A stretch of 39,966 bases of DNA. It comes from Lachnospiraceae bacterium (GTDB taxonomy: Bacteria > Bacillota > Clostridia > Lachnospirales > Lachnospiraceae). The stretch spans positions 1 to 39,966 of the forward strand of contig JAJPXU010000039.1 of assembly GCA_021205305.1 (NCBI GenBank), written 5' to 3'. This document shows, piece by piece, positions 3-29,986 of the stretch. The notes below the pieces were generated by a model, which saw nothing but the letters and a program-made list of their open reading frames with translations, ran no database searches and was not told the DNA's origin. How positions within the stretch are numbered: the first letter of the stretch is position 1; each line of letters starts with the position of its first letter. The position numbers were made by a program, and so were the translations under genes.

Positions 3-1340
3 TATATTCTCCCTTTCGGCCAGGCCATCGCCGAGCTTAGACGCGGAATCCTCATCAATGAAGCAGGGGCTTTTCTCTGGGAACAGCTGCAAACCGGCCC
101 ATCCTACGAAGAACTGCTCGCGGCATTCGCGTCTCACTATCAGGCCACAGAAGAAGAACTTCCCGAGTTAAAAGCAGATATGGATGAATTTCTTGGGCAG
201 CTTATGGCCTTTGGCATTCTGCGGGCAGAGGAACCTGCGAATACGTGTCAGCATCCGATAGCAGAATCTTCCGATTCGCAGGACAGCATATATACAGATA
301 TTTCCATCGAACCAGATACGCGAAACGCAGCGCTGTTCGATTCACAGGAAGATTTCCGCGCGCAGGAGCACTTCCTGGAAATCGGTGGTTTGACGCTGCG
401 GCTTCTTGGCCCATCTGCCGCCTTTGCTCCGGAATTTGTCTCTTTTGCATGCAAAGCAGAAAGCAGCAAGCTTCCTGACCTGACGGTTGAAGTTCTCTCT
501 GCATACCATTTCGCAGATGAGCCAACTGCACGCCGGTGCGCAGATGAGCCTGCCGAATCCTGTCTCGCAGATGAGCGAACCGCCCCCGCTCCCGCAGACG
601 AGCCTGCCAAATTCCGGCGCGCAGACACACCTGCCGCTCCATACCTCATCCGCCATCCGGAACTGACCGTACAGGACTGCGGAGACTTCTTCCGGCTGCA
701 TTTCCCGCAGGCTCCGCAGATTCAGGGGATGACTCTGCGCAAAGACGGATCACACGCGCGTTACATCTGCACGCCGCCCTTCGAAGGACAGGCCGTCACT
801 GATCTGTTCCACGCCATCCGCATCGCCTATCTTTACCTCGCACAAAAAAGGGGCATCTACGCCCTGCACTCCGCCTCCATCCTATACCAGGGAAAAGCCT
901 GGCTTTTTTCCGGACAGTCCGGCGCCGGGAAATCAACACACACCGAAATCTGGAACCGTCTGTTTGGAGTTCCCATTCTGAATGGCGATCTCAACCTGCT
1001 CACCATCCGGGATGGCGCTCCTGTCGTCTGCGGTCTTCCCTGGTGCGGTACCTCCGGCATCTCGACTGCAAAAGACTATCCGCTCGGCGGAATTATTCTA
1101 TTAAAACAGGCCAGGCACAACCTCTGCCTGGCCCCCGGAGCAGATCGACAGATCCTGCTTCTTTCACAGCGCTTCATTTCCCCCATATGGACACGCGGCC
1201 AGCTCGAAAACAGCCTGCAATTCGCGGAGACCATTTCATCGCTCGTCCCCGTCCGCCGTCTCAGCTGTACAAAAGACGACGAAGCCGCGGTCTATATGAA
1301 AGAGCAAATCGATTCTGAACAACGGAAAACACATCCATAA
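3..1340 (+). CDS. PqqD domain fused to HPr kinase-like protein (5' partial)
   Basis: The reading frame is open from base 3 to the stop at 1338-1340 and runs off the left edge, so the true start is not seen. The first 75 or so residues have the PqqD pattern: an LINEAGAFLW core, a helical stretch, then a final FLGQLMAFGIL helix. After a variable linker, the C-terminal half is HPr kinase-like: ALHSASI, then a P-loop GQSGAGKST at 912-938, then NGDLNLL and GLPWCGTSGIS. PqqD domains bind leader peptides of RiPP precursors. HPr kinase-like proteins of lasso peptide clusters (paeninodin type) phosphorylate the peptide, and related kinases also occur in exopolysaccharide loci. The linker (513-644) is a 27-bp tandem repeat. 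The natural partners here are the YxxP-leader proteins at 7402-8193. Substrate and activity are inferred. Confidence 0.85.
   Translation, partial: YILPFGQAIAELRRGILINEAGAFLWEQLQTGPSYEELLAAFASHYQATEEELPELKADMDEFLGQLMAFGILRAEEPANTCQHPIAESSDSQDSIYTDISIEPDTRNAALFDSQEDFRAQEHFLEIGGLTLRLLGPSAAFAPEFVSFACKAESSKLPDLTVEVLSAYHFADEPTARRCADEPAESCLADERTAPAPADEPAKFRRADTPAAPYLIRHPELTVQDCGDFFRLHFPQAPQIQGMTLRKDGSHARYICTPPFEGQAVTDLFHAIRIAYLYLAQKRGIYALHSASILYQGKAWLFSGQSGAGKSTHTEIWNRLFGVPILNGDLNLLTIRDGAPVVCGLPWCGTSGISTAKDYPLGGIILLKQARHNLCLAPGADRQILLLSQRFISPIWTRGQLENSLQFAETISSLVPVRRLSCTKDDEAAVYMKEQIDSEQRKTHP
513..644 (+). repeat. 27-bp in-frame tandem repeat in the PqqD-kinase linker
   Basis: Four full units plus a partial one begin at 513, 540, 567, 594 and 621, each opening with GCAGAYGAGC or a close variant. 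They encode 9-residue units of the ADEPA type. The period is a multiple of three, so copy changes keep the frame and alter only the length of the linker between the PqqD and kinase domains. Confidence 0.85.
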
Positions 1341-2269: not shown

Positions 2270-2358
2270 TTCATTCTCTCCTTTTCTCGTGGACAGCCAT
2301 CGGAGGGCTGTAAAACAAGCAGGCTCAGACAAATCCTGCAAACAATCGTTACTTATTT

Positions 2359-2419
2359 ATCATATCATCATTTATTTCCCTCAGCACAACTATTGGTGCG
2401 TTCATTTCCGACCATTTAT
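2359..2419 (-). promoter_or_regulatory. LytTR-type direct repeat and promoter of the secreted protein gene
   Basis: Read on the plus strand, ACTATTGGT (2389-2397) and ACCATTTAT (2411-2419) are 9-bp direct repeats separated by 13 bp, the layout bound by LytTR response regulators (AgrA, VirR, ComE). On the minus strand a TATGAT -10 box (2359-2364) follows exactly 24 bp after the repeat. The repeat therefore covers the -35 region, as expected for an activator site. Confidence 0.65.
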
Positions 2420-2450
2420 GACAAAAAAGTTATTGATCACCTCTGTACCG

Positions 2451-3854: not shown

Positions 3855-3921
3855 CCGCCAGCCACCTCTTTTTAGCATGCATTCTAGCATACCAAATTAT
3901 GACATGCAAGGCTTTCGTGCT

Positions 3922-5067: not shown

Positions 5068-5113
5068 CTTTCCTTCCCCTTTCTGCTCTTCCATAATACT
5101 TCGCAATATTTCT

Positions 5114-5423: not shown

Positions 5424-7205
5424 CTAAAAATCATGAATCATCTGCTCTACCGCTTCCCCGTCCAGCACTTCACACCGCCGGTTCCGAATCGCGTATACGC
5501 GGTTGCAAATCGTAAGAACCGTGGGGCGATGCGTAGTCACGATACAAGTACGCGGATACTTGTCGCTCATGATATTGCGCAGCAAATGCCGCTCTGTCGC
5601 GACATCCAGCGCGGAGGTTGCCTCATCCAGAAGCAGGATCGGTGATTTGCGCAGCAGAGCACGCGCGATGGAAAGCCGCTGCGCCTGCCCCTCTGAGAAA
5701 CCGCCACCGCGTTCCTTGATTTCACTGTATATCCCATCCGGCAGCTTCTCTACAAAATCCCAGGCACAGGCCAGTTTCAGCGCCTCGATGATCTCCTCAT
5801 CGGTCGCGTCTGTCTTTACGTTACGCATATTCCCTGCGATCGTGCCGGAAAACATCGTATTTCCCTGCGGCACGTATGAAAACATCATCCGCGCGGCCGG
5901 GGTCATGGGGATCGCGTCCAGCGTTTCTCCGCCATACAGCGTCAGGCTTCCCGCCTTTACCGGCATCAGGGCCAGCACCAGCCGCAGCATCGTCGTCTTT
6001 CCCTCACCGGACGGTCCGACCAGAGCCACGATCTCATGCGGCTTCGCGCAAAAAGAAGCGTCCTCGAATACCTGTGTACCCGTCTGGTACGCATAGTAGA
6101 TGTGATCGGCGCAAACACGGATCCCGTCCTCCCTGTGCCGTTCCAGAAAAGCCTGTACCTCAGGAGCGTTGCTGTAATCCTCGCGCGGCATCTCAATAAT
6201 ATCCATCAGCCTGCCCGCAGAGGTCGTCAGGGAAATCGCGCTCGGTACAAGAGAAGTGAGGTTGCTGAGCGCGCCTGTCAGAGTTCCCGAAAGAGACAGG
6301 AACATCGTCATCGTACCATAGCTGATCGCCCCGCTCCAGACGCGATAAATCCCCCAACCATAACTGGCGTAGGAAACCACCAGCCCTACCGTCGTTAACA
6401 GCAGCGACGTCCAGACAGACATTCGCTGAAAGTCCAGCCTCATATCAATGTATTCCTTCTGCAAATCCTTCAGGTACTGTACATAAAGGGAAATCAGCCC
6501 GAACGCCTTAATAGTCTGGATATTGGAAAACGATTCCTGGTTAAAACCAGACATCTTCGCGTTCATAGCCGCACTGCGCTTATTGTTATTCACCATACGC
6601 CGCATCAGCTTCCTTGAGAGCAGCAGCGACACCGGCATTCCCATAAAAGCAAACACCGCAAACGTCCAGTCGTAATATACCACCATGGCAAAGGCACTGA
6701 TAAACCGGAACGCGTAGATAATCGCATTCGGAATAAAGCTCAGCACCCCGCTGGAAATCTGGCTCGCGTCCGAGCTCCACCTCGTCAGCAGATCGCCCGT
6801 GTGATAATTCGTCAGGCTCTCCCAGTCCGTCACCAGAATCTTCTCAAAAATCTCGGATTTGATCTCCGCATCCACCTTCATGCTGATCCATTCCGATGCA
6901 TAATTCGAGATCATACTGACGATCGTATTGCCGATATTCAGGCCGATCATAAAACAAAATGTCTGCACCACCACACCGGTCTCATGCCCGGTAATGATAT
7001 CTACCAGGTCACGCGACACCAGGCTGGACAGCAGCGATACCACCGTCCCTGTCAGCCCCAGCGCCGTATAAAAAATCATCGGCAGCCAGTACCGCCGCGC
7101 ATAAGAATAAATCCATTTTGTCTGTGCGATAAAATCCTTCAGGCGCCCCGCCCTGATGCGCCCCCAGTAAAATGCCAGCCGCTCTTTCATATGTCTCTCA
7201 CTCAC
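5424..7205 (-). CDS. ABC exporter, fused membrane and ATPase domains, no peptidase domain
   Basis: The protein has 593 residues. The GTG at 7205 is chosen because GGAGG lies 7 bp upstream; the ATG at 7190 is an alternative with a poor site. Residues about 30-330 form a six-helix ABC type-I exporter domain. The ATPase domain has Walker A GPSGEGKTT (residues 397-405), signature FSEGQ (about 503) in place of LSGGQ, and Walker B ILLLDEATSAL. There is no C39 peptidase domain, so it does not cleave double-glycine leaders. Its gene lies just downstream of the two leader-bearing proteins but behind their terminator, with a probable extended -10 (TGTTATACT) near 7258. Like the D protein of lasso clusters, it probably exports their products. 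The cargo is inferred from position. Confidence 0.88.
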   Translation of the reverse strand: MSERHMKERLAFYWGRIRAGRLKDFIAQTKWIYSYARRYWLPMIFYTALGLTGTVVSLLSSLVSRDLVDIITGHETGVVVQTFCFMIGLNIGNTIVSMISNYASEWISMKVDAEIKSEIFEKILVTDWESLTNYHTGDLLTRWSSDASQISSGVLSFIPNAIIYAFRFISAFAMVVYYDWTFAVFAFMGMPVSLLLSRKLMRRMVNNNKRSAAMNAKMSGFNQESFSNIQTIKAFGLISLYVQYLKDLQKEYIDMRLDFQRMSVWTSLLLTTVGLVVSYASYGWGIYRVWSGAISYGTMTMFLSLSGTLTGALSNLTSLVPSAISLTTSAGRLMDIIEMPREDYSNAPEVQAFLERHREDGIRVCADHIYYAYQTGTQVFEDASFCAKPHEIVALVGPSGEGKTTMLRLVLALMPVKAGSLTLYGGETLDAIPMTPAARMMFSYVPQGNTMFSGTIAGNMRNVKTDATDEEIIEALKLACAWDFVEKLPDGIYSEIKERGGGFSEGQAQRLSIARALLRKSPILLLDEATSALDVATERHLLRNIMSDKYPRTCIVTTHRPTVLTICNRVYAIRNRRCEVLDGEAVEQMIHDF

Positions 7206-7330
7206 CTTAAAGCCTCCGTCTAGATGCTGTATAAACAGCCAGTCATTTCTGTGAATCGAGTATAACATAAATGTTCCTGCGATACCACAGTTACGCTTGT
7301 ATTTTTCCGTAAAAATCATCATCGTGAGAG

Positions 7331-7370
7331 AAGACAAAAAGACCCGAAGCACAATTATAAGCTTCGGGTC
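7331..7370 (-). terminator. Rho-independent terminator after the leader-protein genes
   Basis: A perfect 10-bp stem GACCCGAAGC / GCTTCGGGTC (7341-7350 and 7361-7370) with a 10-base loop is followed on the minus strand by TTTTTGTCTT. It separates the two leader-protein genes from the ABC exporter. Confidence 0.9.
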
Positions 7371-7401: not shown

Positions 7402-7797
7402 TTAACCATTGCATATCAAGGAATAACCAGTAATAACAAGACCATCGCCAGCTGAAACATAAACATCGCCTAAGCCAATATTATCACTTGCATTGTTCCA
7501 ATATGTATAGTCAATATATAAAGTAGAAGTCCCATCTCCTGATTTTAACGATCCGCCGGATGATACATATGTAACTGCCTGATTAAAACTCAAAACCAAC
7601 GTCTGAGAGGAAGAGGTATGATCTGCATCATGTTTTGCATTTACTTGAATCACATATGTTTCTCTTCCAGTCTCAGGTGTCTGAGTTATATACGCGCTCA
7701 CACTATAACAGCCCGTACCATTACCGCTTGCCGTATACACGCCCTCTGAAATCTCCTCATTTGCCAAGACTACTGGCCTTCTATACATTTTATCCAT
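7402..7797 (-). CDS. YxxP-leader small protein with predicted beta-sandwich core
   Basis: The protein has 131 residues. The ATG at 7797 has AGGAGG 7 bp upstream. Residues 1-25 form a leader (YRRPVVLANEEISEGVYTAS) nearly parallel to that of the neighbouring protein at 7834. YxxP near the start is the motif that lasso peptide leaders present to PqqD-like B1 proteins. The remaining 105 or so residues alternate like beta strands, have one Cys near each end of the core (GCY and LICNG) that could form a disulfide, and contain SDNIGLGDVYV, which recalls small carbohydrate-binding beta-sandwiches. There is no lasso-type core. I infer an exported protein guided by PqqD recognition; modification by the nearby kinase or nucleotidyltransferase is possible but unproven. 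Confidence 0.75.
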   Translation of the reverse strand: MDKMYRRPVVLANEEISEGVYTASGNGTGCYSVSAYITQTPETGRETYVIQVNAKHDADHTSSSQTLVLSFNQAVTYVSSGGSLKSGDGTSTLYIDYTYWNNASDNIGLGDVYVSAGDGLVITGYSLICNG

Positions 7798-7833
7798 CGA
7801 TAATCCTCCTGTCTGTCACTCACACATTATCTA

Positions 7834-8193
7834 CTAACAGTTAAAATCTGTCACCGGGTCATTCGGCCCATAGTTTTTCTGCTCCCAAGTTGGCTTATAA
7901 TAACCGATATCTGACTCATAACTGGACGCATAACCGGAAGCCACATAATCTGTCAACAGGCCACAACCATTTGAACGATAGGCGCGGCAACCAAGACATC
8001 CATAATTGTATTTATACCCCGGCGTCCCATTCGACCAATCGTAGGTAGGTGCCTGCCAGACACCGTTCATATAAGCACTCTCACACTTCACCGTACCAGT
8101 CGCTGAAATTGTCTCCGCTCCGCTCGAAGTATATATCCCTTCCGCCAACTCACTGTCCGCCAATATCAATGGCTTTCTATAAGTATTTTTCAC
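7834..8193 (-). CDS. YxxP-leader small protein with Cys/Tyr-rich core
   Basis: The protein has 119 residues from a GTG at 8193. That start makes the leader begin four residues before the YRKP motif, exactly as in the downstream paralogue, and an AGAAGG site lies about 10 bp upstream. A longer frame starts at a TTG at 8259 without a ribosome site. The leader YRKPLILADSELAEGIYTSS aligns with that of the 7402 protein, but the cores do not. This core has five Cys (three in GCLGC and NGCGL) and many Tyr, Gly and Asn residues. The pair is driven by a promoter at 8276-8304 and ends at the 7331 terminator. A modified or disulfide-bonded exported product is inferred; no known family is recognised for the core. 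Confidence 0.7.
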   Translation of the reverse strand: MKNTYRKPLILADSELAEGIYTSSGAETISATGTVKCESAYMNGVWQAPTYDWSNGTPGYKYNYGCLGCRAYRSNGCGLLTDYVASGYASSYESDIGYYKPTWEQKNYGPNDPVTDFNC

Positions 8194-8391: not shown

Positions 8392-9753
8392 CTATTCGTC
8401 AAATATCCGCAGTTCTTCCATCCTGCGGCTGCGTTTTCCGGCCTCTTTTAATATAGAGAGCGTGGAGGTATGCCGGACTCTGCGATTGTTGCGCAGAAAT
8501 CGAATCAGTGTGAGCGTCCACAGAGCTGGCCAGAGCAACACGATTTTCCCCTTTTGGGGATAGTTCAGGTGCATCTGGTGATGGAATTCCCTAATGTAAT
8601 CCGTCAGATGTGCGCCTTTCATCGCTACCATACGCTCAGATTCTGAATGCCCAAATTCTTCGGAATCAAAAATCTCACGCAGAAACGCTTCTGCGTGTTC
8701 CTCATCCGGGTTCAGAAACAATACACCAGAAACATCCAGGCCAAGGTATTTCACGCAGGCGCCAGTGACCAAGGACGCGAACCGGCAAAGCCCGTCTTCT
8801 CTGAGAATTCCGGTAAGTTCTCGCTTTTCTTCCTCGTTCCACGGCTGCGCAAACAGAACACTCCAGTCACAGAGCAGTTTTAAGCCGAAGCCGGCTCTCA
8901 GGAAGTGCTGCAGCATATGCAGGAGCAAATGCCATGCCTGGTATGGACGGTCGAGTACTGGGAATTCAATATCCATGATTTCACGCCGGACACAGTGAGC
9001 CGGGCACTGCCGCATCCGTGTTTTCATGCGCTCGTTTCTGCCGGAATCCTCAAATGGTTCCGCCGGAAGCAGATGAAGCTCCACCTCAATTTCCTCAGAG
9101 GAAACATATACGTCATGATGAACGGATTCCTGCGTCTCGGCCAGATGAAAACCGGCTTCTGCCATAATGCCGGGAATATCTGCCCCCTTTGGCGTAGCCT
9201 CATGGTAACCCGGAGGCTCCCTGTTAGATTTTTCAGAAATACACCCCAAACACCCTTCCTCTGGCTCTTCTACAACCAGGAGATCCACGTCTCCGGATTT
9301 GCGCAGCTCCGGCACAGGATAATCCGCAGCTGCGCTGACGCCCTTTAACACAATCACAGAAACCCCGTGAGTTTCCAAAAACGCAACCAGATATTTTGTC
9401 AGAAACAGCAGATGATACGCCTGCGGCACGGTATGACGGGCAGCTGCCTCGACCTCTTGTTGAAAGCTTTTCCAGGCCGCCGCGTTCCCTCCATTCTCTG
9501 TAAAAACCCCGTTCTTCGTTCTTGCAACTGCTTCCCCACAGGCGGCGTCGTAAAGCAGCGGCAGCACCGCATGCTTTCGCGCGACAGCGGACAGCTGTGA
9601 CAGCTGCCCCTGATCAATCTCCCAAGGCGGCCCGGCAGGCTTTTCTGTTGAAGCCAAAAGCGATTCAACAGACTTTTCCGCTGAAGCAGAAAGTGCCTCC
9701 GCAAGCATCCACAGAAGTGCCTGCTCTTCTGATGTCAATTCTTCTTTTTGCAT
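8392..9753 (-). CDS. Nucleotidyltransferase family protein (PF14907-like)
   Basis: The protein has 453 residues. The ATG at 9753 has GGAGGA 5-6 bp upstream. The central region VIVLKGVSAAADYPVPELR then GDVDLLV (Asp155 and Asp157) is the hallmark of the uncharacterised nucleotidyltransferase family found beside lasso peptide genes (PadeN type) and in exopolysaccharide loci. Members transfer a nucleotide or sugar-phosphate group, and in lasso clusters they act after an HPr kinase-like enzyme. The C-terminal half has the HLLLHMLQHFLRAG helix typical of the family. An insertion after GDVDLLV (EEPEEGCLGCISEKS) is unusual. The N terminus has a short imperfect repeat (SAEKSVESLLASTEK). The gene is 81 bp after the flippase on the same strand. 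The substrate is unknown; the two leader proteins are candidates. Confidence 0.82.
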   Translation of the reverse strand: MQKEELTSEEQALLWMLAEALSASAEKSVESLLASTEKPAGPPWEIDQGQLSQLSAVARKHAVLPLLYDAACGEAVARTKNGVFTENGGNAAAWKSFQQEVEAAARHTVPQAYHLLFLTKYLVAFLETHGVSVIVLKGVSAAADYPVPELRKSGDVDLLVVEEPEEGCLGCISEKSNREPPGYHEATPKGADIPGIMAEAGFHLAETQESVHHDVYVSSEEIEVELHLLPAEPFEDSGRNERMKTRMRQCPAHCVRREIMDIEFPVLDRPYQAWHLLLHMLQHFLRAGFGLKLLCDWSVLFAQPWNEEEKRELTGILREDGLCRFASLVTGACVKYLGLDVSGVLFLNPDEEHAEAFLREIFDSEEFGHSESERMVAMKGAHLTDYIREFHHQMHLNYPQKGKIVLLWPALWTLTLIRFLRNNRRVRHTSTLSILKEAGKRSRRMEELRIFDE

Positions 9754-9834: not shown

Positions 9835-11385
9835 CTACTTCTTGCGGACACCACTCTTACCTGTAAGTCTCCCCTTTACAATCGCCAGAACCTCCCGGAA
9901 CTCTCCCGTGCGGCCATACAACAGCAAAAAACACAGATTTGGCCAAATGACCGCGATCAGCAAACGAAGCAAAAACTTCACCAAAATCGTTCCACCCATC
10001 TGACCGCAAATCCGATCTGTCACAAACCAGACACCCGCCAGGACTGCCGCATATTTTGCATATTTCGCAAAATAGGAGCGGACCGGTGCTTTCAGGCAGT
10101 GCTTATAAAGCACATATGGCTCCACCCAGAGTGAGGTCGTCACTGTGCTGATAAAGGTTCCCCAGAATACGCCCGCGGCGCCAAACCGCAGCGCCAGCAC
10201 AATGGATACCGTCAGGTTTACCAGTGCTTCCGCGATAGATTTGTAGCGGTCATACCAGAACAGCCCCAGCGAATCCCGGAAAATCAGGGTTGCCTTCCGC
10301 ATCCCTGTGAGATAAAAATTCAGACAGAGTACCAGCACCACTCCCGGATCAAAGACATAATTCACCCCGAAACTGATCTCTACAAACAGGCTCAGCAGCT
10401 CATACAGGCAGATCGCGGCAAACCCGTAGAGCCACTGTCCGATAAAAAAAGAGGTTTCAAATATTTTCCGTATATGTGCCTCATCCTCCAGGACGCCGAG
10501 ATTCCCCACGCTGGCGGAAATCCCCTGAAAGACCTGGTCCAGCACCTGTCGCACAGAACCGATCACCAGATAATAGTTGGAATACTTTCCCACACTGCCG
10601 AGCCCGACCAGCGCTGAGAGCAGGATGTTATCGGTATTATTGACTATCACCGTACCGATTTTGTGCATCAGCATAGCCTTGACATTCTTTATAATCCCGT
10701 TTTTTTCCTGCTGATCCAGAGGCGCGACTTCCCGGTCTCTCAGAAACGGATACATACGATCTGCCTTTCGGGAGATACTCACGTTGCCGCTCACCGTGCA
10801 GACCACGGCGATGATACAGAACAAAAGAAAATTTCCGGTTGTCAGCAAAATCAGAATCTGTGCCACATCCTGAATGACAAGGAAAATCGTATGGTACATA
10901 GTACCGATATATGTCAGCTGGTGCGCCTCAATCAGCGTTTTTTTATAAATCAAAAGATAGGAAAGCACCGAATTCGCCAGATACAGCAGGTAGATCAGCG
11001 TCAAATGCTCCACCTGCGGCCTGTCTTTCATGATCACATCCATAAATGGGACGACCAGAAGTCCGCCAACCAGCACAATCAGCGCCACGATCCGATAAAA
11101 CCAGCAGTACAGGCGCATGATGGATTTCTGCTTTTCCGTATCTTTCTCCGCGACCGGCTTATAAAGGGCATAAGTGATCGCCGTACCAACCCCCAGCTCC
11201 GAGAGTGCGAGCACATTCAAAATGTCCGTAAACAGGCCATTGATACCGACGTAATTTTCACTCAGAACATGGGTAAATACCACCCGCGTCACAAAGCCCA
11301 TCAGAATGGCTATCATCCGGGAAGCGACGGCGACCGTTGTATTCTTTACCGAATATTCTGTTCTGGTGCGTGTTTGATCTGCCAT
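9835..11385 (-). CDS. Wzx-like polysaccharide flippase (MOP superfamily)
   Basis: The protein has 516 residues from the ATG at 11385, with AGGAG 7-8 bp upstream. A longer frame to 11499 adds a charged stretch unlikely to precede the first membrane helix. About twelve to fourteen membrane helices are spread over the whole length, with the typical N-terminal pattern SVKNTTVAVASRMIAILMGFVTRVVF and a NNTDNILLSALVGL motif in the middle. Such proteins move lipid-linked oligosaccharides across the membrane. It lies between the Stealth transferase and the nucleotidyltransferase, suggesting that the locus makes a surface glycan or phosphoglycan. No polymerase or initiating transferase is seen next to it. 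Confidence 0.88.
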   Translation of the reverse strand: MADQTRTRTEYSVKNTTVAVASRMIAILMGFVTRVVFTHVLSENYVGINGLFTDILNVLALSELGVGTAITYALYKPVAEKDTEKQKSIMRLYCWFYRIVALIVLVGGLLVVPFMDVIMKDRPQVEHLTLIYLLYLANSVLSYLLIYKKTLIEAHQLTYIGTMYHTIFLVIQDVAQILILLTTGNFLLFCIIAVVCTVSGNVSISRKADRMYPFLRDREVAPLDQQEKNGIIKNVKAMLMHKIGTVIVNNTDNILLSALVGLGSVGKYSNYYLVIGSVRQVLDQVFQGISASVGNLGVLEDEAHIRKIFETSFFIGQWLYGFAAICLYELLSLFVEISFGVNYVFDPGVVLVLCLNFYLTGMRKATLIFRDSLGLFWYDRYKSIAEALVNLTVSIVLALRFGAAGVFWGTFISTVTTSLWVEPYVLYKHCLKAPVRSYFAKYAKYAAVLAGVWFVTDRICGQMGGTILVKFLLRLLIAVIWPNLCFLLLYGRTGEFREVLAIVKGRLTGKSGVRKK

Positions 11386-11580
11386 TCCTCTGCTCCTGTC
11401 ATCCTGGTCTCTTCCTGCCGACAACCTGTCATCCGTGTTTCTTCCGTCTCTGCGCATATCTCCGCGGCAAGGCCCTGTCTGTATCTTTCCTTCCGTCATT
11501 ACCTGCTCATGGTTCTCTCCTGAAATTGCAGCAGGCAGAATTCATCCGTCTCCTGCACAACAGCAGGCTCTTACCATCTG

Positions 11581-12579
11581 CTACCGCTCGAACGCGGATT
11601 TTTCCGGTAAAATCTTCTCAAACGATTGCCGGATTTCCGCTTTCGCAGCCTCAAAATCAATTGCGTGATTCGCGTCATTGATACAGACGCATTTCGCTTT
11701 TTGCTTTTCAATCGTGCGGCAGAGTTTCTGATTGTCATCGCTCACATTAAAATACCGAAGATCCCGCAGCACATTTTTCGGATGAAATTCCCCGCTCAGT
11801 TTCTGCCACTCCCTGACCAGATAAGGGCCAATATCCTCATTTGAGCGAAAACGGTGTGTGGAAAATTCGCTCAGGTAATCCCCCTCCTTCTGCCAGATTA
11901 TTTCAAACGTAGATTTGCAGAAAGGGAACGGTCCATGAGGCGTATAAAAGCCTGTATAAAGCGGAAACGTCAACTCCAGCAGATTGTAGAAAAAGTACAG
12001 CGGCGGATACCCGGGGTGAAAATAATTTCCGGGATGCCGACGCACATTCTGCCGCTTATCAAAATATTTAGACAGCATCAGCGAAATATTCAGAAACTCG
12101 TGCGACATATTCGGATTGGCAGGATTGGCCACCACCGGCTGGAATGCCAGCAGATCGCAGGGCTTTCCGTCTATAAAATAGTCCTTCGGCGCGGTCGGTG
12201 CGGTCAGAAACATATCATCATTAAAATAAACAAAATTCTCACTCAAAGCATCAATCCGGTGCAGATGCATCTCAATGACGCGGCTGTTAAACGTCGGCAG
12301 ATATTTCTCCGGAATATAGTCCCGGTGATTGACCACCTTAAGCTTCGGATGTTCCGTGTTAAGCCATCCGGGCAGATGTCCCCAGGTTACAAAATAAATA
12401 TGGCCTGCCCAGGGTGCAAATTTTTCCACACCGCGAAACCAGTATGGCAAAAGCTCCCAGTCCCGGTAACGCTCCGGCCGGGCGTCCGCGTCTCTGGACG
12501 GCGCATAACGCGCTTTTTCCCGCTGCCATGCCGGGTCGTCTCCATCTACCCAGGTAACTACAAAATCAATCGCACCCAT
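11581..12579 (-). CDS. Stealth family sugar-phosphate transferase
   Basis: The protein has 332 residues. The ATG at 12579 has GGAGG 10 bp upstream. It shows the conserved Stealth regions in order: IDFVVTWVDGDDPAWQ at the N terminus, then RYRDWELLPYWFRGVEKFAPW with IYFVTWGHLPGWL, then FVYFNDDMFL, and RFRSNEDIGPYLVREW near the end. Stealth proteins (bacterial capsule hexose-phosphate transferases and GlcNAc-1-phosphotransferase of animals) make phosphodiester-linked glycans. It is followed by a flippase, supporting a phosphoglycan for the surface. The acceptor and sugar cannot be told from sequence. Confidence 0.9.
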   Translation of the reverse strand: MGAIDFVVTWVDGDDPAWQREKARYAPSRDADARPERYRDWELLPYWFRGVEKFAPWAGHIYFVTWGHLPGWLNTEHPKLKVVNHRDYIPEKYLPTFNSRVIEMHLHRIDALSENFVYFNDDMFLTAPTAPKDYFIDGKPCDLLAFQPVVANPANPNMSHEFLNISLMLSKYFDKRQNVRRHPGNYFHPGYPPLYFFYNLLELTFPLYTGFYTPHGPFPFCKSTFEIIWQKEGDYLSEFSTHRFRSNEDIGPYLVREWQKLSGEFHPKNVLRDLRYFNVSDDNQKLCRTIEKQKAKCVCINDANHAIDFEAAKAEIRQSFEKILPEKSAFER

Positions 12580-12742: not shown

Positions 12743-13039
12743 TCAAATCACAACCCCCTGCTTCCGCAATTCCGCCAAAAACGCGCCTGCATCCTCTCTG
12801 GCCTGTTTCGCCGGAATTTCATATGTCTCACTGAGCTTTTCCGCGATTTCATCCAGATCCATTCCCTGCCGCAGCATTTTCCAGATCGCGGCGCCCATTT
12901 CATTCATCGGCACTGGTTTCACATAGGGCATACCGGACTGTTCCATATCAAGCAGCCAGTAAATGCCCGCGGCATGGCGCAGCTGATATCGTTCTTTTTG
13001 GGGGATTATTTCCCCTTTTTGCTTTTTTCTCTCTTCCAT
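12743..13039 (-). CDS. PqqD family leader-binding protein
   Basis: The protein has 98 residues. It has the PqqD pattern: a YQLRHAAGIYWLLDM beta stretch, VPMNEMGAAIWKMLRQGMDLDEIAEKL, a helix EIPAKQAREDAGAFLAEL and a final strand KQGVVI. PqqD domains (RRE, or B1 in lasso clusters) bind the leader of a ribosomal precursor and bring it to processing enzymes. The YxxP leaders at 7402 and 8193 are fitting ligands. It heads the minus-strand run PqqD - Stealth - flippase - nucleotidyltransferase. A second PqqD domain is fused to the kinase at the left edge. The start has AAAAGG only 3-4 bp upstream. Confidence 0.87.
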   Translation of the reverse strand: MEERKKQKGEIIPQKERYQLRHAAGIYWLLDMEQSGMPYVKPVPMNEMGAAIWKMLRQGMDLDEIAEKLSETYEIPAKQAREDAGAFLAELRKQGVVI

Positions 13040-13239: not shown

Positions 13240-14808
13240 ATGTATAAACTGTCCGGGCGCGCCCATTCTGTATTTTTACCACAGATCTTTTCCTTGGGTC
13301 TGCTGCTTCTGTTCTGCCTGCTCTTCGCCGGGCAGCCGTCTTACGCATCCTCCGGCTCTTCGTTTTCCTATACATCCGAACCATTTGAGGAAACCACGCT
13401 TTCCCTGGAAAATCCTTACCGGGGCTTTTATCAGATCCACGCCTATGAACTGAATGACGGGAATTCCTCTCTGGGCGCTGCCATCCAAAAGCAGATTGCA
13501 TCCGATGAAGGACTGACCCTCGTCCTGCTCGAAATCAACCTGCAAAACTACGCGGAATGCGCCATCTCGGAAAGCGCGCTCTCACAGATTGATTCCATCC
13601 TGACTGCCTGGAGCGCCAGCGGCAAACAGATCATTCTCCGCTTCCTCTATGACTGGGACGGAAACGGGCTGGAGTCGGAACCTTCCTCTCTGGAACAGGT
13701 GCTTGAACACATGGAGCAGGTCACGGCCATCGTCAACCGCTACGCGGACTCGATTCATATCCTGCAGGGTATCTTTGTCGGCAATTATGGAGAAATGAAC
13801 AACTCCGCCTATCTGAGTGCCTCCGATATGACTACGCTGCTCACGACCCTTGCTGATCTGACCGACCCGTCCATCTACCTCGCGGTGCGGACACCCGCAC
13901 AGTGGCGTACCGTGACCGGACTTTTTTCTCTGCCCAAGACGTTTCTCGCCTTTGACGGCTCCCTGCTCTCCCGCCTGGGGCTTTACAACGACGGCATCCT
14001 CGGCTCTGAGACAGACTTAAGTACCTACGGCAGCACTTCGCGAGCCGGTTCCAGCGACCTCTCTGACAAGGGAACGCGCGAGGAAGAGCTTACCTTTCAG
14101 GAAGAACTCTGCCGCTACGTACCAAACGGCGGCGAGGTCGTCTATGACTACACACAGGGAGACCTGGAAGCAGCCATTGATGCACTCTCGCAGATGCACA
14201 TTTCCTACCTGAACGCGGGCTATGACGAATCTGTGCTGGATACCTGGAAGGAAATCACCTATACCGGCGACGATGTTTTCTATGGCTGCAGCGGCTACGA
14301 TTACATCAGCACCCACCTCGGCTACCGCTATATCCTGACCGCTTCCGGTATGGAAACAGGCCGTCAGACCGCTGGGGAGGCGACGCTTTGCTTTACCATC
14401 CAAAACACTGGGTTTGCTTCCAGCACACGCGCGTTCGACGCCACCGTCACGCTCCGTATGTCTGCGTCAGCTGATTCGGATGACGCTGCCGCTGAATCCG
14501 ATGAGACAGAAGCTTCCTCTGAAACATCCTCCGGCGATGCGCTCCCTTCCACAGATGAGGAGCCGTCTGACAGCCGCGAAACAGATACGCTTACATACAC
14601 CGCTACCATTGATCTCCGCGCGCTGAGTACCGGGGAAAGCACAATCGGTACGGCCATCATCCCCGTTGGCGAGCTTGTCGACGGCACGTATACTGTCTAT
14701 CTGACCCTGACGGACGCGGTCACCGGTACGGAAATTGCCCTGGCGAGCAGCCCGGAAGCGACCGCATACGGCTATCCGCTCGGAATGCTCACGATTGGAA
14801 ATGAATAA
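13240..14808 (+). CDS. Secreted DUF4874/DUF4832 family protein
   Basis: The protein has 522 residues. The ATG at 13240 has AGGAGG 5 bp upstream. A signal peptide (hydrophobic core LGLLLLFCLLF, cut near SYAS-S) is followed by the DUF4874 start NPYRGFYQIHAYEL, strands such as LVLLEINLQNYAE and IILRFLYDWDG, and the motif QGIFVGNYGEMNNSAYLS, whose Glu is in a glycosidase-like setting. A DUF4832-type half follows, ending in a beta domain split by an Asp/Ser/Glu-rich segment (about residues 408-450). Proteins of this family look like TIM-barrel glycoside hydrolases but are uncharacterised as far as I know. It faces its paralogue at 14884-16311, the last gene of the Pel operon, so an action on the same exopolysaccharide is a fair inference. 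Confidence 0.78.
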   Translation: MYKLSGRAHSVFLPQIFSLGLLLLFCLLFAGQPSYASSGSSFSYTSEPFEETTLSLENPYRGFYQIHAYELNDGNSSLGAAIQKQIASDEGLTLVLLEINLQNYAECAISESALSQIDSILTAWSASGKQIILRFLYDWDGNGLESEPSSLEQVLEHMEQVTAIVNRYADSIHILQGIFVGNYGEMNNSAYLSASDMTTLLTTLADLTDPSIYLAVRTPAQWRTVTGLFSLPKTFLAFDGSLLSRLGLYNDGILGSETDLSTYGSTSRAGSSDLSDKGTREEELTFQEELCRYVPNGGEVVYDYTQGDLEAAIDALSQMHISYLNAGYDESVLDTWKEITYTGDDVFYGCSGYDYISTHLGYRYILTASGMETGRQTAGEATLCFTIQNTGFASSTRAFDATVTLRMSASADSDDAAAESDETEASSETSSGDALPSTDEEPSDSRETDTLTYTATIDLRALSTGESTIGTAIIPVGELVDGTYTVYLTLTDAVTGTEIALASSPEATAYGYPLGMLTIGNE

Positions 14809-14883: not shown

Positions 14884-16311
14884 TCATACAGCCGGCCGCC
14901 ATCCGAACACAGTACCGATGGGCAGCAGATTTTTGGCATTCTGATTCGCGAACCAGATGGTCTCCCCGTCTTCCTGCCGCAGCCGCAGAAAAAGTTCTTC
15001 CCGCCATGGGATTCCGTCTTTGCCGTCAGCCGCCACGCCTGGGCATTCTGCGGTAATACAAAATGTCTGTCCCGCGTCCCAGGCTCCCGGATTTGTATCC
15101 AACGGCTGCCGTACTTCGCTGCCGTCCGCGCCGCGCGCGATCAAAGACAGGCGCGCAGCCCGAAACAAATTGCCAAACCCGACGTTTTGCCCGCGAATTT
15201 CCAGGTGCAGTGTGAGACTGCCGCCACTGATTTCCCTTTCTTTTCGCGCTTTTCCAAACCGGAGCGCCCGGTTCCGGGCGAATGACATACGCTCCTCACG
15301 GAACCATCCGGACACTTCCTCTATGACAAACCGATACCCCAGATGCAGACCAATATAGTCATAAAGGCTGCATCCCTGGTACACGGTATCTTTTCCCCGG
15401 TAGCACAGCTGTTTCCATCTTGCAATCACCGTCTCGGAATACACCCGATTCAGATACGTCAGGTGCATCCGGCGCATCGTATTTAAAACCTCATCCACCG
15501 TAAAATCATACCTGTTTTTCGATGTCCCGTCCGGCGCCTCCCCACCGTTCGGCACCCGCACACACGCCTCGTTCAGATAGGATAGTTCCAGAGACGCACT
15601 CCACGGCCGGTTTTCAATCAAAGTACCCTGGGCGTTTCTGGAATTGATCTCCCCGTACCGCCCTTCGGCAAATGTCCCCAGGTGGGATTCCGAAGCAAAC
15701 AGACCGTCGTCATACAGACCCACCGCCAAAGCAGAACACTCCGGCGCTGCCTGAAGAATCCGCTTCTGCACCGGTTTTCTTACGGACAGGAAGCAGGTAC
15801 CGCCCGTTGCCTCCCAGAGTGTTTTCGCGAGCAGGCAGATATTCTCATCGGACAGGTAGCGGGACGAATGCATCTCCCCCCAGCTGCCCACCAGAAGTCC
15901 CTGCAAAGTAAGAATGTATGGGGCGTATTTCGCAAACAGCGGCCCCAGCTGGCGGATATGGCGCAGGATCTGGGAAATCTCGTCCGGCTCCCGTTCCATT
16001 CCTTTTCCTTCCCGGTCGTACACCGTGCGGACAATCATCTGCTTTGCATGCGAAGAAAAAAAATCAAAAATTCGCCGGATATTGCTCAGCTCCCGCTCCG
16101 TCAGGTCGTCCATGCGGCAGCAGCCAATATCCAGAATAACCTGCGCCAGGTGTTCCCGCGTATCCAGACACCACTTCAGTTCTTCCTCATGGATCGTTTC
16201 GCGCACATCAAAACTGTACACCTGATACCAGCCGCGCCCCGGATTAGGCAGTTCGGCAGCTGTCTCCGCCAGCGTGGCGGGCCAAAAACGACTCTTTTCA
16301 CGACGAAACAT
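14884..16311 (-). CDS. DUF4874/DUF4832 family protein without signal peptide
   Basis: The protein has 475 residues. It is a clear paralogue of the secreted protein at 13240: NPGRGWYQVYSFD, QMIVRTVYDREGKGMEREP, LQGLLVGSWGEMHSSRYLS, VRVPNGGEA, and YLNRVYSETVIARWK with CSLYDYIGLHLGYRF all align in order. It lacks a signal peptide: the N terminus is MFRREKSRFWPATL. It closes the long minus-strand Pel-type operon, 89 bp after the GT2 gene. Fold prediction from the family is a glycosidase-like barrel. A cytoplasmic member beside a secreted one is odd. It may act on a lipid-linked or cytosolic intermediate, or be exported by another route. Confidence 0.76.
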   Translation of the reverse strand: MFRREKSRFWPATLAETAAELPNPGRGWYQVYSFDVRETIHEEELKWCLDTREHLAQVILDIGCCRMDDLTERELSNIRRIFDFFSSHAKQMIVRTVYDREGKGMEREPDEISQILRHIRQLGPLFAKYAPYILTLQGLLVGSWGEMHSSRYLSDENICLLAKTLWEATGGTCFLSVRKPVQKRILQAAPECSALAVGLYDDGLFASESHLGTFAEGRYGEINSRNAQGTLIENRPWSASLELSYLNEACVRVPNGGEAPDGTSKNRYDFTVDEVLNTMRRMHLTYLNRVYSETVIARWKQLCYRGKDTVYQGCSLYDYIGLHLGYRFVIEEVSGWFREERMSFARNRALRFGKARKEREISGGSLTLHLEIRGQNVGFGNLFRAARLSLIARGADGSEVRQPLDTNPGAWDAGQTFCITAECPGVAADGKDGIPWREELFLRLRQEDGETIWFANQNAKNLLPIGTVFGWRPAV

Positions 16312-16400: not shown

Positions 16401-17204
16401 CTACTGTCCGCAGTTTGCACCATCCGTACGATTCATCTGCCGGACATTCGTATCCATTTTCAAGACCTTTATCCGGACCAGCACCGCCAGAATCGAAAAC
16501 ACCATCCGAAACATATAAAACACCGGCTTCAATCCGGAATGCATACTCTTCCCTGACATCCGGCTATGCATCACGGCCGGAATCTCCCGCACCTGAAATC
16601 CGAGAAGAAGCATCTGCATTACCATGTTGGCGTCCGGATAGCGATCGTCAAAATGGTTGTATTTCGAATAATAGAGAAACGCGGCGCGGCCGAGACCCTG
16701 CAGACCGGTTGTAGGGTCGCTGATTCTTTGCCCGGTTCCGAGATACACCAGTTTCCGGTAAAACCGGAACGCCAGATTTCTCACTCTGGAAATCGGGTAC
16801 TGACCGCTGCCCTCCATAAAGCGGGACGCCAGGATAATGTCCGGATACCGGCCCTCTTCATCCGGTGTCTTCAGCGCCTGATAAATCCGGGGAATATTGC
16901 AGACGTCATGCTGCCCGTCCGCGTCCATCTGGATCACATAGCGGTAATTCCGCCGGATCGCGTACTTATAGCCGAGCTGAAGCCCGCTCCCGTAGCCCAG
17001 ATTAAAAACATGCGTCACCAGCTTGTGCCCCCGCGCCTTCACAATCCAGTTCGTATTGTCCGAAGATGCGTCATTCATAACCAGGATATCCGCAATCGCG
17101 CGGATTTCCGGCTGTTCCAGCGCCTCCAGCACCGCCGGTATATTTTCTTCTTCGTTATATGCCGGTATGATAATCAGCAGTTCTTTCTGTTTCTCTTCCT
17201 CCAT
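16401..17204 (-). CDS. Glycosyltransferase family 2 (polyprenyl-phosphate sugar transferase type)
   Basis: The protein has 267 residues. The start at 17204 is 3 bp after the GT4 stop, with GGGAGA upstream. The N terminus LLIIIPAYNEEENIP, then VMNDASSDNTN, and the metal site IQMDADGQHD are those of dolichyl-phosphate mannose synthase-like GT2 enzymes. The C terminus has a single hydrophobic segment (VFYMFRMVFSILAVLV). With the DUF2304 protein two genes upstream it forms a pairing often seen in polysaccharide loci. It probably loads a sugar on undecaprenyl phosphate or adds a side group to the Pel-like polymer. Confidence 0.9.
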   Translation of the reverse strand: MEEEKQKELLIIIPAYNEEENIPAVLEALEQPEIRAIADILVMNDASSDNTNWIVKARGHKLVTHVFNLGYGSGLQLGYKYAIRRNYRYVIQMDADGQHDVCNIPRIYQALKTPDEEGRYPDIILASRFMEGSGQYPISRVRNLAFRFYRKLVYLGTGQRISDPTTGLQGLGRAAFLYYSKYNHFDDRYPDANMVMQMLLLGFQVREIPAVMHSRMSGKSMHSGLKPVFYMFRMVFSILAVLVRIKVLKMDTNVRQMNRTDGANCGQ

Positions 17205-17207
17205 CTT

Positions 17208-18458
17208 TCATTCTCCCGTACCGATTCCTTCATCCAGCAGCGACAGCAGCTGCCTGATTTCCCCCAGATCGAAGTTCTTCTTTCGAGCCGCGGCTTCCTT
17301 ATACCGCTGCCGTTCTTTTGGATGATCCAGCATCCACACAATTCCCTCGGCGATATTCTCCGCCGTCAGAGCACACAGCCTGCCATCCACACCTTCCGTG
17401 ATCTGCTCACGATTGCCGCTGCAGTCCGAAGCGAGAATCGCGCAGCCCAGCGTCTGCGCCTCCTCAATCGCGATGCTCTTTCCCTCAAACCGTGTGGCAT
17501 GTACATACAGATCCGTCTGCGCGTAATAGGGATACGGATTCTCCTTCTGTCCCAGAAGAAGAAAATCCTTCTCCAGTCCCAGCGCGGCAATCTGATGTTC
17601 CAACGCTTTTCTCCGGTCGCCTTCGCCCAGGACATACCAGCGAACCTTCCGCCCGCGCTGTTTTAAAAGATAAAGTGCTTCAACCGCAAGATCGTACGCT
17701 TTCTGCTCAGTCAGCCGCCCCACTGTCAGAATCCGCAGGCCTTCAAAGATATCTGTAAATCCCCCCGGTTCACGAGCCAGCCGGTGAATTTCGCTGACAT
17801 CCAGGATATTGTGGAATACCGCCGTCCGGCTCTCACATTCCGGATATGCTTTCAGAAACGCTTCCCTGACCTCATCCGAGACGGCAAACACCCGGTCAAA
17901 CGAGAGATAGCAGTCCAGATCCAACTCCCTGGTATAACCAGCCATCCCGTAATCTATATGGATAAACGCAGCCTTCTTCGCGGCATTTACGTAGTCCGCG
18001 ACATAGTAGGCAGCGCCCCCTTCCAGAAACGCCACAGCCAGGTCATAGCGCTTTCGCGTCCTGGCGGAACCGTCCGCGACCAGCCTCCAGAGCAGCTTTT
18101 CCGGCAGAATTTTATGCTTCCGGCACATATCCGCAAAATTGCGCGCCAGATACGGCAGCCGTCTGAAAACAGCCCCGCCGGTAAGCGCGTCGCGCAATAC
18201 CGTCCGCCGCAGCTGCTTCCGGCCTTCCCCGGAAAGTACCGGCAGTTCTGTATAGTCACGGTTCAATAGCCGGACGCCCTCCGGCACATGTCCCATCAGC
18301 TGTCCCTGACCCAGAAGTACATACAGGGAAAGCTCGTACTTTTCCCGGTCAAGGCAATGCAGCAGCGCCAGCAGGGCGTGTTCCGCTCCCGCGTTTCCCA
18401 TCGTATTAATGACAAACAGGATTCGTTTTTTTCGCTTCTTTTTTCTCTTTCGTCCCAT
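17208..18458 (-). CDS. Glycosyltransferase family 4
   Basis: The protein has 416 residues. A basic start (GRKRKKKRKKR) runs into the first Rossmann strand ILFVINTMGNAGAEHAL. The second Rossmann half has LRILTVGRLTEQKAYDLAVEAL, WYVLGEGDRRKALE, LLGQKENPYPYYAQTDLYVHATRFEGKSIAIEEAQ, with the E-x7-E motif in the last part. This is a retaining GT-B enzyme. Its first 53 bases overlap the end of the DUF2304 gene in another frame, and no clear ribosome site precedes the ATG, so translational coupling is likely. It acts in the cytoplasm, presumably on the exopolysaccharide of this operon. Confidence 0.9.
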   Translation of the reverse strand: MGRKRKKKRKKRILFVINTMGNAGAEHALLALLHCLDREKYELSLYVLLGQGQLMGHVPEGVRLLNRDYTELPVLSGEGRKQLRRTVLRDALTGGAVFRRLPYLARNFADMCRKHKILPEKLLWRLVADGSARTRKRYDLAVAFLEGGAAYYVADYVNAAKKAAFIHIDYGMAGYTRELDLDCYLSFDRVFAVSDEVREAFLKAYPECESRTAVFHNILDVSEIHRLAREPGGFTDIFEGLRILTVGRLTEQKAYDLAVEALYLLKQRGRKVRWYVLGEGDRRKALEHQIAALGLEKDFLLLGQKENPYPYYAQTDLYVHATRFEGKSIAIEEAQTLGCAILASDCSGNREQITEGVDGRLCALTAENIAEGIVWMLDHPKERQRYKEAAARKKNFDLGEIRQLLSLLDEGIGTGE

Positions 18459-20388: not shown

Positions 20389-21861
20389 TTATAGATGAAA
20401 TTTCTCCATCGGCCATGTCAGCTTCATGCTGTCCGAAAAATCATGGTAAATCGTCTCATAGGTTTTTTTCATATCTTCAATGCGGTACTTCGCCATCACG
20501 CGGCGGTATCCGGCCTCTCCCATCTCGCGGCGGCGGCCGGGATTTCTTGCCATCTCTACCATCGCCCGCGCGATCTCCTCTACATTCATAATGTGAGTCA
20601 GAATCCCCGCCTGGCCAAAGTCATCATTCTCACCGTAAATCAGGCCGTAACAATTTCCCACATCGGTCGCGATGACCGGACGGTGGGCGGCATAGCTCTC
20701 CAGAATCGTCAGCGGCTGTCCCTCGCTGATGCTTGTCAGGATCGTCACATCCATCCTGCCAAGATAGTCTTTCACATCAATCCTGCCCGTAAAGATCACA
20801 TCGGATACGCCCAGCGCCTTTACCAGGTCAAAACATTCCTGCGCGTAAACCTTGTCCTCGTCGCTCGGTCCCATAATCCACAGCTTCATGCCAGGCTCCA
20901 TCTTTTTCGCAAAGGCAAAGGCCTGAATCATTGTCTTGACATCCTTGATCGGCGTCACACGCAGCACCGCGCCGATGTTAACGATGTCTTTTTCTTCCTC
21001 CGGCTTGCCCGGAAGATTCATCAGGCGCTGCGTATTGATCCCATTCGGCGTCACCATGGTCTTTTCCGGCGGACAGCCCAGTTCCATCTGAAGCTCCCGC
21101 GCGTGCTCGAACAGGCTCGTGACCAGATCCGCCCTCTGATAAGCCAGATCCGAAAGCTTATGGAATTGGTCAATCCAGATATTTTTATAAATCCCGGTCA
21201 CCCACTTTGCCTTGATCAGCTCTTCCTCGCGTTCCCTGGTGTAAATCCCATGTTCGGAAATCATTAGGCGGCAGCCGTAGAAATACTTCGCCATACTTCC
21301 GAGAACGCCTGAATAACCGGTCGCGACACAATGGTACAGATCCGCCTGCGGAATCTCGGACTGCATCGTGAGGAACAGCGGCAGGTAAATGGAGCGCATC
21401 GTCCACAGAAAATCAGAAAAGACAATCTGCGAATACTTCAGCCGGTAGCACTCTGATACTGCCTGCAAAAAATCTTCCCCCATCAGAAGGTCATCAATCG
21501 AAAGCTCTTTGCGCTGCAGCAGATCAAACAGCGTATTCCAGTCCGTCTCCTGATTCAATATCATGCTGCGGAGCGCCTGGTATTCTTTCTTTTTCAGTCT
21601 CCTGGTATGGCGTCTTCCCCGGCGGATGCTCCAGTCCTGATCTTCCAGGTAGACTGCGTGTACCTCCGTGACATTCTCCGGCAGCGTATAAGCAAAATCT
21701 GCTCCCACTGAGCGGTTCGCCACCACCGCCAGCACAATAAACTCGTGATTCGGCAGAGACTGAATCAGACTATGTACCCACCCGGAAACGCCGCCGACCA
21801 CATAAGGATAACAGCCTTCCGCCACAATGCATATTTTCGTAACCGGCACCTCCTCTGGCAT
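20389..21861 (-). CDS. pelF: PelF-like glycosyltransferase (GT4)
   Basis: The protein has 490 residues. The start KICIVAEGCYPYVVGGVSGW is the PelF signature, and the length is close to that of known PelF. GT-B features follow: VTSLFEHARELQ, TPNGINTQRL, IGAVLRVTPIKDVKTMIQAF, and VTILTSISEGQPLTILESYA with the E-x7-E motif. PelF builds the Pel chain from UDP-sugars in the cytosol and needs the PelD/E/G membrane complex. The ATG at 21861 has a weak site. GAGGAGG lies inside the first codons, but no usable in-frame start follows it at the right distance. It is 10 bp after the DUF2194-like gene. Confidence 0.93.
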   Translation of the reverse strand: MPEEVPVTKICIVAEGCYPYVVGGVSGWVHSLIQSLPNHEFIVLAVVANRSVGADFAYTLPENVTEVHAVYLEDQDWSIRRGRRHTRRLKKKEYQALRSMILNQETDWNTLFDLLQRKELSIDDLLMGEDFLQAVSECYRLKYSQIVFSDFLWTMRSIYLPLFLTMQSEIPQADLYHCVATGYSGVLGSMAKYFYGCRLMISEHGIYTREREEELIKAKWVTGIYKNIWIDQFHKLSDLAYQRADLVTSLFEHARELQMELGCPPEKTMVTPNGINTQRLMNLPGKPEEEKDIVNIGAVLRVTPIKDVKTMIQAFAFAKKMEPGMKLWIMGPSDEDKVYAQECFDLVKALGVSDVIFTGRIDVKDYLGRMDVTILTSISEGQPLTILESYAAHRPVIATDVGNCYGLIYGENDDFGQAGILTHIMNVEEIARAMVEMARNPGRRREMGEAGYRRVMAKYRIEDMKKTYETIYHDFSDSMKLTWPMEKFHL

Positions 21862-29785: not shown

Positions 29786-29986
29786 GGTACTTTCCCGCCC
29801 CTTTACGGATTCTCCGCGCCTCTCGTGCAATCATAATAAACATCATACCGAATTTCCCTTCTTTTTTCAACACTTTTCTCAAACGTTCCCCTAATCGTTC
29901 CATAATCCTCTTTTCTGCCCCTGTATTTGCATTTGATACGCCTCCTTTTTGAAAATTCATCAATTCCGGATTCTGCATAATTTCTG

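Follow-up and report, generated by a model that had tools for sequence, protein, structure and literature searches.

Two leader-bearing proteins of a Lachnospiraceae contig as probable substrates of an LPP-type pathway linked to Pel-type exopolysaccharide loci

What is the function of two adjacent proteins which share a leader of the lasso peptide type, but carry unrelated cores, and which are encoded beside genes for PqqD domains, a kinase and a nucleotidyltransferase? This question is raised by contig JAJPXU010000039.1 of a Lachnospiraceae bacterium (assembly GCA_021205305.1, 90.9% complete). The window, i.e. the whole stretch of DNA analysed, is this entire contig of 39,966 bp (G000:C3 in our numbering, in which G denotes genomes and L loci), and its left edge lies inside a gene encoding a PqqD-kinase fusion. 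We consider it probable that the two proteins, designated P1 and P2, act as substrates in a Lachnospiraceae branch of the pathway that produces linear polyphosphorylated peptides (LPPs), in which protein-sized cores would serve a Pel-type exopolysaccharide matrix. LPPs are specified by lppAKBSDN of Paenibacillus alginolyticus (Popov et al. 2026, PMC13381572). At the level of sequence, we observed a shared leader, a recurrent gene set, conserved leader-pocket residues in the RRE domains, conserved catalytic motifs and linkage to Pel genes, and the loci tested contained no lasso cyclase.

P1 (7402..7797, minus strand, 131 aa) starts with an ATG at 7797 preceded by AGGAGG, and P2 (7834..8193, minus strand, 119 aa) with a GTG at 8193 preceded by AAGAAGG, although the mechanical list of open reading frames (ORFs) begins 22 codons earlier at a TTG. 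In both proteins the YRRP or YRKP motif begins four residues after the start, and the preliminary description of this locus had placed both proteins and their starts correctly. The leaders, residues 1-25 in each case, are MDKMYRRPVVLANEEISEGVYTASG in P1 (7723-7797) and MKNTYRKPLILADSELAEGIYTSSG in P2 (8119-8193). They are identical at 13 of 25 positions and align locally with a score of 82, whereas 1000 shuffles reached at most 31, which rules out chance likeness. In contrast, the cores (residues 26-131 in P1) score 27, below the shuffle mean of 29.8, and are, by sequence, unrelated to each other. The combination of like leaders and unlike cores, claimed in the preliminary description, is therefore borne out.

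The same leader recurs within the family. Homologues of P1 were found at nine loci of genome contigs. Of 397 family genomes, 17 yielded homologues of P1 and 12 those of P2, each genome count including that of the window and one probably accidental match in a very large frame (G369, G234). A regular expression recovered 34 leaders from 29 loci; it imposed Tyr, Lys/Arg, Pro, Gly, Val/Ile/Leu, Tyr/Phe and Ser-Gly, so that the invariance of these residues in this set is built in. It permitted a spacer of 6-22 residues, yet all 34 leaders are equal in length, with Glu 13 residues past Tyr, and the position two residues past Pro, which was not imposed, is V, I or L in every one. Position 22 is Ala in 25 leaders and Thr in six of the 34, Thr22 being present in both window leaders. 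A profile built from 31 leaders matched 40 ORFs at E <= 1.2e-5 in 23 of the 397 genomes, the next match having an E value of 0.003; a cut-off of 0.1 gives 42 genomes, from which the 19 with only matches of 0.003 or worse were excluded.

In total, 38 loci were scanned (the window, L008-L016, L048-L066 and L097-L105). A leader hidden Markov model found 54 ORFs in 37 of them, and Ser-Gly closes the motif in all 54. The regular expression divided 51 of these ORFs into leader and core (those of L060, L061 and L105 are excluded from the core count), and the 51 cores form ten groups at E <= 1e-3 (27, 10, 3, 3, 2, 2 and four singletons), some of which may have been merged by single linkage. The 50 complete cores are 53-138 aa long, and the core of L010 9416 is a 16-residue fragment. 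A leader conserved beside PqqD genes and joined to varied cores had been anticipated in the preliminary description, and this is what the homologues display. By eye, the cores of the leader proteins L099 9663 (minus strand) and L100 9874 (plus strand) look like beta-grasp (ubiquitin-like) domains. Three further leader proteins, one of the P2 type by eye, are located on IMG/VR viral contigs (L116-L118) and have no bearing on the argument.

The core of P1 is predicted to be a CBM2-like beta-sandwich. The AlphaFold2 model is all-beta with seven strands; its first 27 residues have a pLDDT (predicted local distance difference test) below 50, and ten-residue blocks from residue 31 on average 59-93. 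The structural match to CBM2, at 11% identity, comes from a second look with VIA-align at Foldseek's own ranking. This agrees with the earlier portrayal of P1 as a beta-sandwich-like domain with two Cys (two were counted in its core) and P2 as a Tyr/Cys-rich chain: the P2 core contains five Cys, some in a GCLGC...CGL motif, and is Tyr-rich by eye. Neither protein matched a Pfam or NCBIfam family at E <= 1, ten other leader proteins gave no Pfam family above the cut-offs, and a PDB sequence search with P1 returned nothing useful. All nine aligned P1-type proteins contain the His residues found at positions 56 and 60 of P1, which may form a metal site in the sandwich.

The system might instead make short modified peptides, the large cores being cut further to antimicrobial or signalling ribosomally synthesised and post-translationally modified peptides (RiPPs). 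It is true that such RREs and kinases are RiPP enzymes, and several divergent cores per locus are known in lasso clusters (PMC13381572, the latter in its introduction). We nevertheless regard this possibility as unlikely: nine P1 homologues align with P1 over the entire core at 53-67% identity, P1 is predicted to form one compact beta-sandwich, and the annotated families of these loci, at which some recurrent families are unannotated, included no recognisable second protease.

The reading of P1 and P2 as substrates of an LPP-type pathway draws on the genes which accompany the leader. Among the 38 loci, an ABC exporter (at least 480 aa) is present in 28, a small peptidase in 24, a PqqD-kinase fusion (at least 370 aa) in 23 and an NTP_transf_5 enzyme in 21, with all four in 17. 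In the window, domain searches confirmed the two PqqD domains, HprK-like P-loop kinase, nucleotidyltransferase and peptidase-free ABC exporter reported earlier. The MsbA-like exporter (5424..7352, minus strand) has only ABC_membrane and ABC_tran over the Pfam cut-offs, and its two best NCBIfam matches, both under cut-off, are MsbA models; peptidase C39 is not among its Pfam matches, so that a leader peptidase built into the exporter is ruled out. The kinase (3..1340, plus strand), truncated at its 5' end by the contig edge, carries an N-terminal PqqD (RRE) domain and matches HprK-related NCBIfam models weakly, under cut-off. Its P-loop SGxGKSTH and an NGDxNL motif are conserved across 22 aligned sequences; a PDB sequence search with the PqqD-kinase gave nothing useful. 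L060 contains two PqqD-kinase-like genes (13823 and 17323, both plus strand; 377 and 430 aa) on either side of one exporter and one leader protein. The second PqqD domain of the window is a discrete protein of 98 aa (12743..13039, minus strand; PqqD E 4.1e-16). The NTP_transf_5 (PF14907) enzyme (8392..9753, minus strand; E 1.6e-27), assigned also on motif conservation, may be likened to PsmN and LppN by kind and context, rather than by sequence comparison.

The PqqD domains themselves point to leaders of the lasso or LPP type. A profile of 17 of them matched four PDB chains at E <= 0.1, namely TbiB1 (1.1e-8), LppB (1.1e-5), TfuB1 (2.7e-5) and PbaB1 (1.1e-4), all of which are RREs of lasso or LPP leaders; for the discrete window domain alone the best PDB match is LppB, albeit a weak one (E 0.1). 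In LppB, Asn33 fixes the kink at the leader Pro, Asp70 bonds the leader Tyr and Phe74 lines both pockets (PMC13381572). With this numbering transferred via an alignment of the discrete window domain to LppB, all eight discrete domains retain the equivalents of Asn33, Asp70 and Phe74; among the 24 kinase-fused ones, Asn33 is retained in 19, Asp70 in 22 and Phe74 in 21.

The preliminary description had seen no full protease, and here it requires correction, since in relatives the cassette does include a dedicated serine peptidase, SipW-like in type, which 24 of the 38 loci encode. The protein has about 140-190 aa; of three members tested, two matched Peptidase_S24, and in both members compared with NCBIfam the best model was sigpep_I_arch, with SipW second or third, all under cut-off; a PDB sequence search gave nothing useful. 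The Ser of GxSM, His of HR and Asp of VGD, presumed to be catalytic, do not vary among the 21 peptidases compared. In L008 the peptidase ORF begins 11 bases past the kinase ORF, on the side equivalent to the left end that the window contig lacks. The absence of the peptidase from the window looks like an edge effect, because the contig starts inside the kinase gene and relatives carry the peptidase near that gene; its presence in the window's own genome is unproven, the gene not having been found throughout that 90.9%-complete assembly.

Across the 397 genomes, the peptidase profile matched 83 at E <= 1e-5, and the best 20 (E < 1e-45) are all leader genomes, with 374 genomes having neither (Fisher 7e-31). 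This value is descriptive, as the cut was chosen after viewing the list (the next genome has 1.5e-42) and the profile was built from the same loci. When all 83 are counted, 21 of 23 leader genomes match, as do 62 without the leader (Fisher 1e-13). The leader genomes outside the best 20 are that of the window (contig edge), G146 (68% complete) and G389 (weaker match, E 2.5e-19).

Ten loci with a more distant peptidase (L106-L115) look like sister systems: an ABC protein was found in eight, a kinase-sized match in seven, a separate PqqD in six, NTP_transf_5 in six and a P1/P2-type leader in none. Small proteins with WxxP leaders are encoded in L106 (18646-18900, plus strand), L111 (10568-10978, plus strand) and L114 (14244-14660 and 16618-17043, both minus strand); these leaders terminate in IAASG, VAACG or VAVC (the latter two preceded by EY). 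L106 also carries PelF and PelG genes.

A different reading of the same cassette is that the leader is an ABC export signal only, the RRE handing the protein to the exporter and peptidase, with the kinase and nucleotidyltransferase acting elsewhere, e.g. on the polysaccharide. Exporter and peptidase do co-occur most tightly with the leader (the exporter is present in 24 of 24 peptidase loci), whereas the kinase or the NTP_transf_5 enzyme was not found at some loci. Moreover, in L011 (7019-9814, plus strand) and L013 (6967-9765, plus strand) the NTP_transf_5 enzyme and a flippase form one protein of 931-932 aa, and this fusion suggests that the enzyme may work with the flippase or its cargo. 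However, the PqqD-only profile also recognises the kinase protein at 19 of the 23 kinase loci (the exceptions are L048, L055, L060 and L105), with the leader-pocket residues mostly kept, and Ser-Gly ends the leader in every profile-found ORF; we therefore judge a pure export signal to be rather improbable.

The exporter is absent from ten of the 38 loci, among which L016 and L066 are short contigs. At L065, L097 and L099-L104 a leader protein is present, and no exporter of the cassette family was seen within 10-20 kb (17-20 kb in L099 and L100). L065 and L102 extend up to the end of their contigs; L101 shares a contig with a cassette, some 27 kb away.

Could this be a lasso peptide locus after all? 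A search for the cyclase family PF00733 covered 20 leader genomes (all of the 23 except G025, G213 and G389; some leader contigs are short) and placed every match on another contig or at least about 24 kb away (nearest in G304), and the window's genome gave only two weak matches, both on other contigs. The lasso explanation is thus ruled out at the tested loci, in keeping with the earlier statement that no macrolactam synthetase is seen; nor are the 50 complete cores (53-138 aa) of the short lasso type. The lasso precursors of ruminal Lachnospiraceae have different leaders (PMC7533575). A relic or derailed lasso locus that has lost its cyclase would explain why PqqD, kinase, nucleotidyltransferase and exporter are all common to paeninodin-like clusters (PMC13381572), but numerous genera carry the cyclase-free set, its catalytic motifs conserved and its complete cores protein-sized, and we find such an origin hardly credible.

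The substrate reading is extended by the genes to the right of the cassette, which form an exopolysaccharide neighbourhood. Domain searches identified DUF4874/DUF4832 proteins (13240..14808, plus strand, and 14884..16311, minus strand), two glycosyltransferases (16401..18458, minus strand; Glycos_transf_2 at 16401-17204 and Glycos_transf_1 at 17208-18458), PelG (PF16933; 18862..20304, minus strand; E 2.5e-152), a PelF-like glycosyltransferase with DUF3492 (E 1.5e-77) and Glycos_transf_1 (20389..21861, minus strand), and a DUF2194 protein of the Pel-like operon (21872..23782, minus strand). DUF3492 is taken here to be PelF. An epimerase gene (27608..29830, minus strand) with a weak DUF4118-like stretch under cut-off might, at a guess, be a candidate GalE-PelD fusion. 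PelG was found in all 23 leader genomes, in 19 of them on the leader contig at a distance of up to 30 kb, and in G025, G146, G240 and G389 on another contig. In a sample of 299 family genomes (taken to be G000-G298, near one genome per genus), PelG is present in 53 (52 above cut-off): every one of the 17 leader genomes has it, as against 36 of the 282 without a leader (Fisher 1.5e-14, a guide only, as the genomes are related). As far as sequence can tell, the leader cassette is closely tied to Pel-type exopolysaccharide loci.

We infer the following course of events and, with it, the matrix role. The YxKPx[VI] leader strand would dock on a PqqD domain, either discrete or fused to the kinase; the fusion fits this scheme, because it joins the leader-binding domain to the Ser-modifying enzyme. 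The kinase would then place at least one phosphate on the invariant Ser of ...VY(A/T)(A/S)SG (Ser24 in P1 and P2), as LppK adds up to four phosphates to its precursor, at core Ser3 (PMC13381572). The NTP_transf_5 enzyme might add a sugar or nucleotide to this phosphate; PsmN of pseudomycoidin attaches a hexose to phospho-Ser (PMC9266682), and deletion of lppN caused no change in the host used (PMC13381572). The SipW-like peptidase would cleave just before the Ser, most likely as VY(A/T)-(A/S)SG (the hyphen marking the cut), making the modified Ser residue 2 of the mature protein. Signal peptidase sites have a small residue at -1. The predicted cuts in the window, VYT-ASG and IYT-SSG, follow from the fit of Thr22 both to this rule and to the Thr-1 after which LppS cleaves in an RRE-dependent manner (PMC13381572). 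Alternatively, a cut after Tyr21 would make Ser24 residue 3, as in LppA; under either cut the invariant Ser-Gly would supply the phosphate acceptor. Finally, the ABC exporter would move the protein out, and the core would fold and bind, or be tied to, the polysaccharide.

The observations of the preliminary description are thus confirmed, and its interpretation, a leader-guided system that tags or exports whole folded proteins, is partly supported; such tagging and export is what we infer. A bolder form of it is a protein-sorting system, in which one leader routes about ten unrelated kinds of folded protein via an RRE-kinase that builds a phosphate, and then a phospho-sugar, handle on the new N-terminal Ser, joining the protein covalently to, or holding it in, nascent Pel-type exopolysaccharide. 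This leader-guided counterpart to sortase/exosortase anchoring is conceivable, though doubtful. If the general scheme is true, RRE-guided modification would be widened from peptides to whole proteins, and leader-defined matrix proteins would be indicated for gut bacteria.

The remaining neighbours of the cassette are a polysaccharide flippase (Polysacc_synt; 9835..11499, minus strand) and a Stealth-family protein with CR1-CR4, CR4 being slightly under cut-off (11581..12579, minus strand). Between kinase and exporter, three genes (1367-5106, minus strand) are without a relative among the compared loci; by eye, two of them resemble an AgrC-like sensor kinase (2451-3890) and a membrane acyltransferase (3922-5106).

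Several known systems can be set beside these loci. The phosphorylated lasso type of paeninodin and pseudomycoidin has in common with them an RRE with a [Y/W]xxP leader, an HprK-like kinase, a nucleotidyltransferase-like enzyme and an ABC exporter, and differs in that the Lachnospiraceae loci tested are without a cyclase and have a serine, not cysteine, leader peptidase and protein-sized cores. The Gram-positive Pel operon (pelDEADAFG; PMC7112168) shares the PelF-like, PelG and DUF4832 genes, the last being included in clostridial and streptococcal pel loci, whereas no RRE, HprK-like kinase or leader protein is mentioned in the parts of that paper drawn on here. Compared with CBM2 modules, the P1 core is only 11% identical and is without a catalytic partner domain.

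The closest system is that of the LPPs, which comprises the SipW-like peptidase LppS, the RRE LppB, the HprK-like kinase LppK, the NTP transferase LppN and the MsbA-like LppD; its precursors combine a YxxPxVLxHQxIxFETxxS leader with variable C-termini, at a total length of 35-200 aa, and were initially encountered in Bacilli, at loci for capsular polysaccharide (PMC13381572). Words beginning with Clostridi or Lachnospir are absent from the main text of that paper, and a literature search, in which most candidates were judged from listings, yielded no paper recognised as dealing with the Lachnospiraceae branch. Counterparts of the discrete RRE, kinase, NTP transferase and exporter are present in the window (the kinase and NTP transferase likened to LppK and LppN by type), and that of the peptidase in relatives only. 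Common to LPPs and the Lachnospiraceae set are the YxxPxV first half of the leader, a PqqD/RRE, an HprK-like kinase, a SipW-like serine leader peptidase, an MsbA-like exporter, an NTP transferase, one to three precursors per locus, within 35-200 aa and with variable C-termini, a polysaccharide neighbourhood and the lack of a macrolactam cyclase. The second half of the leader differs (ExxEGVYxxSG versus HQxIxFETxxS), and in the Lachnospiraceae set the RRE is often fused to the kinase, complete cores span 53-138 aa, P1 is predicted to be folded, some substrates lie away from any exporter seen, and the loci are linked to Pel. According to the authors, the roles of LPPs and paeninodin are unknown, and a biofilm role is called speculation (PMC13381572, Discussion). 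The Lachnospiraceae branch offers a handle on this question, as the one putative substrate modelled is predicted to have a carbohydrate-binding fold and PelG is present in every leader genome. The peptide version of the pathway was published in 2026; what is new here is a probable LPP-type branch with protein-sized cores and a tie to Pel.
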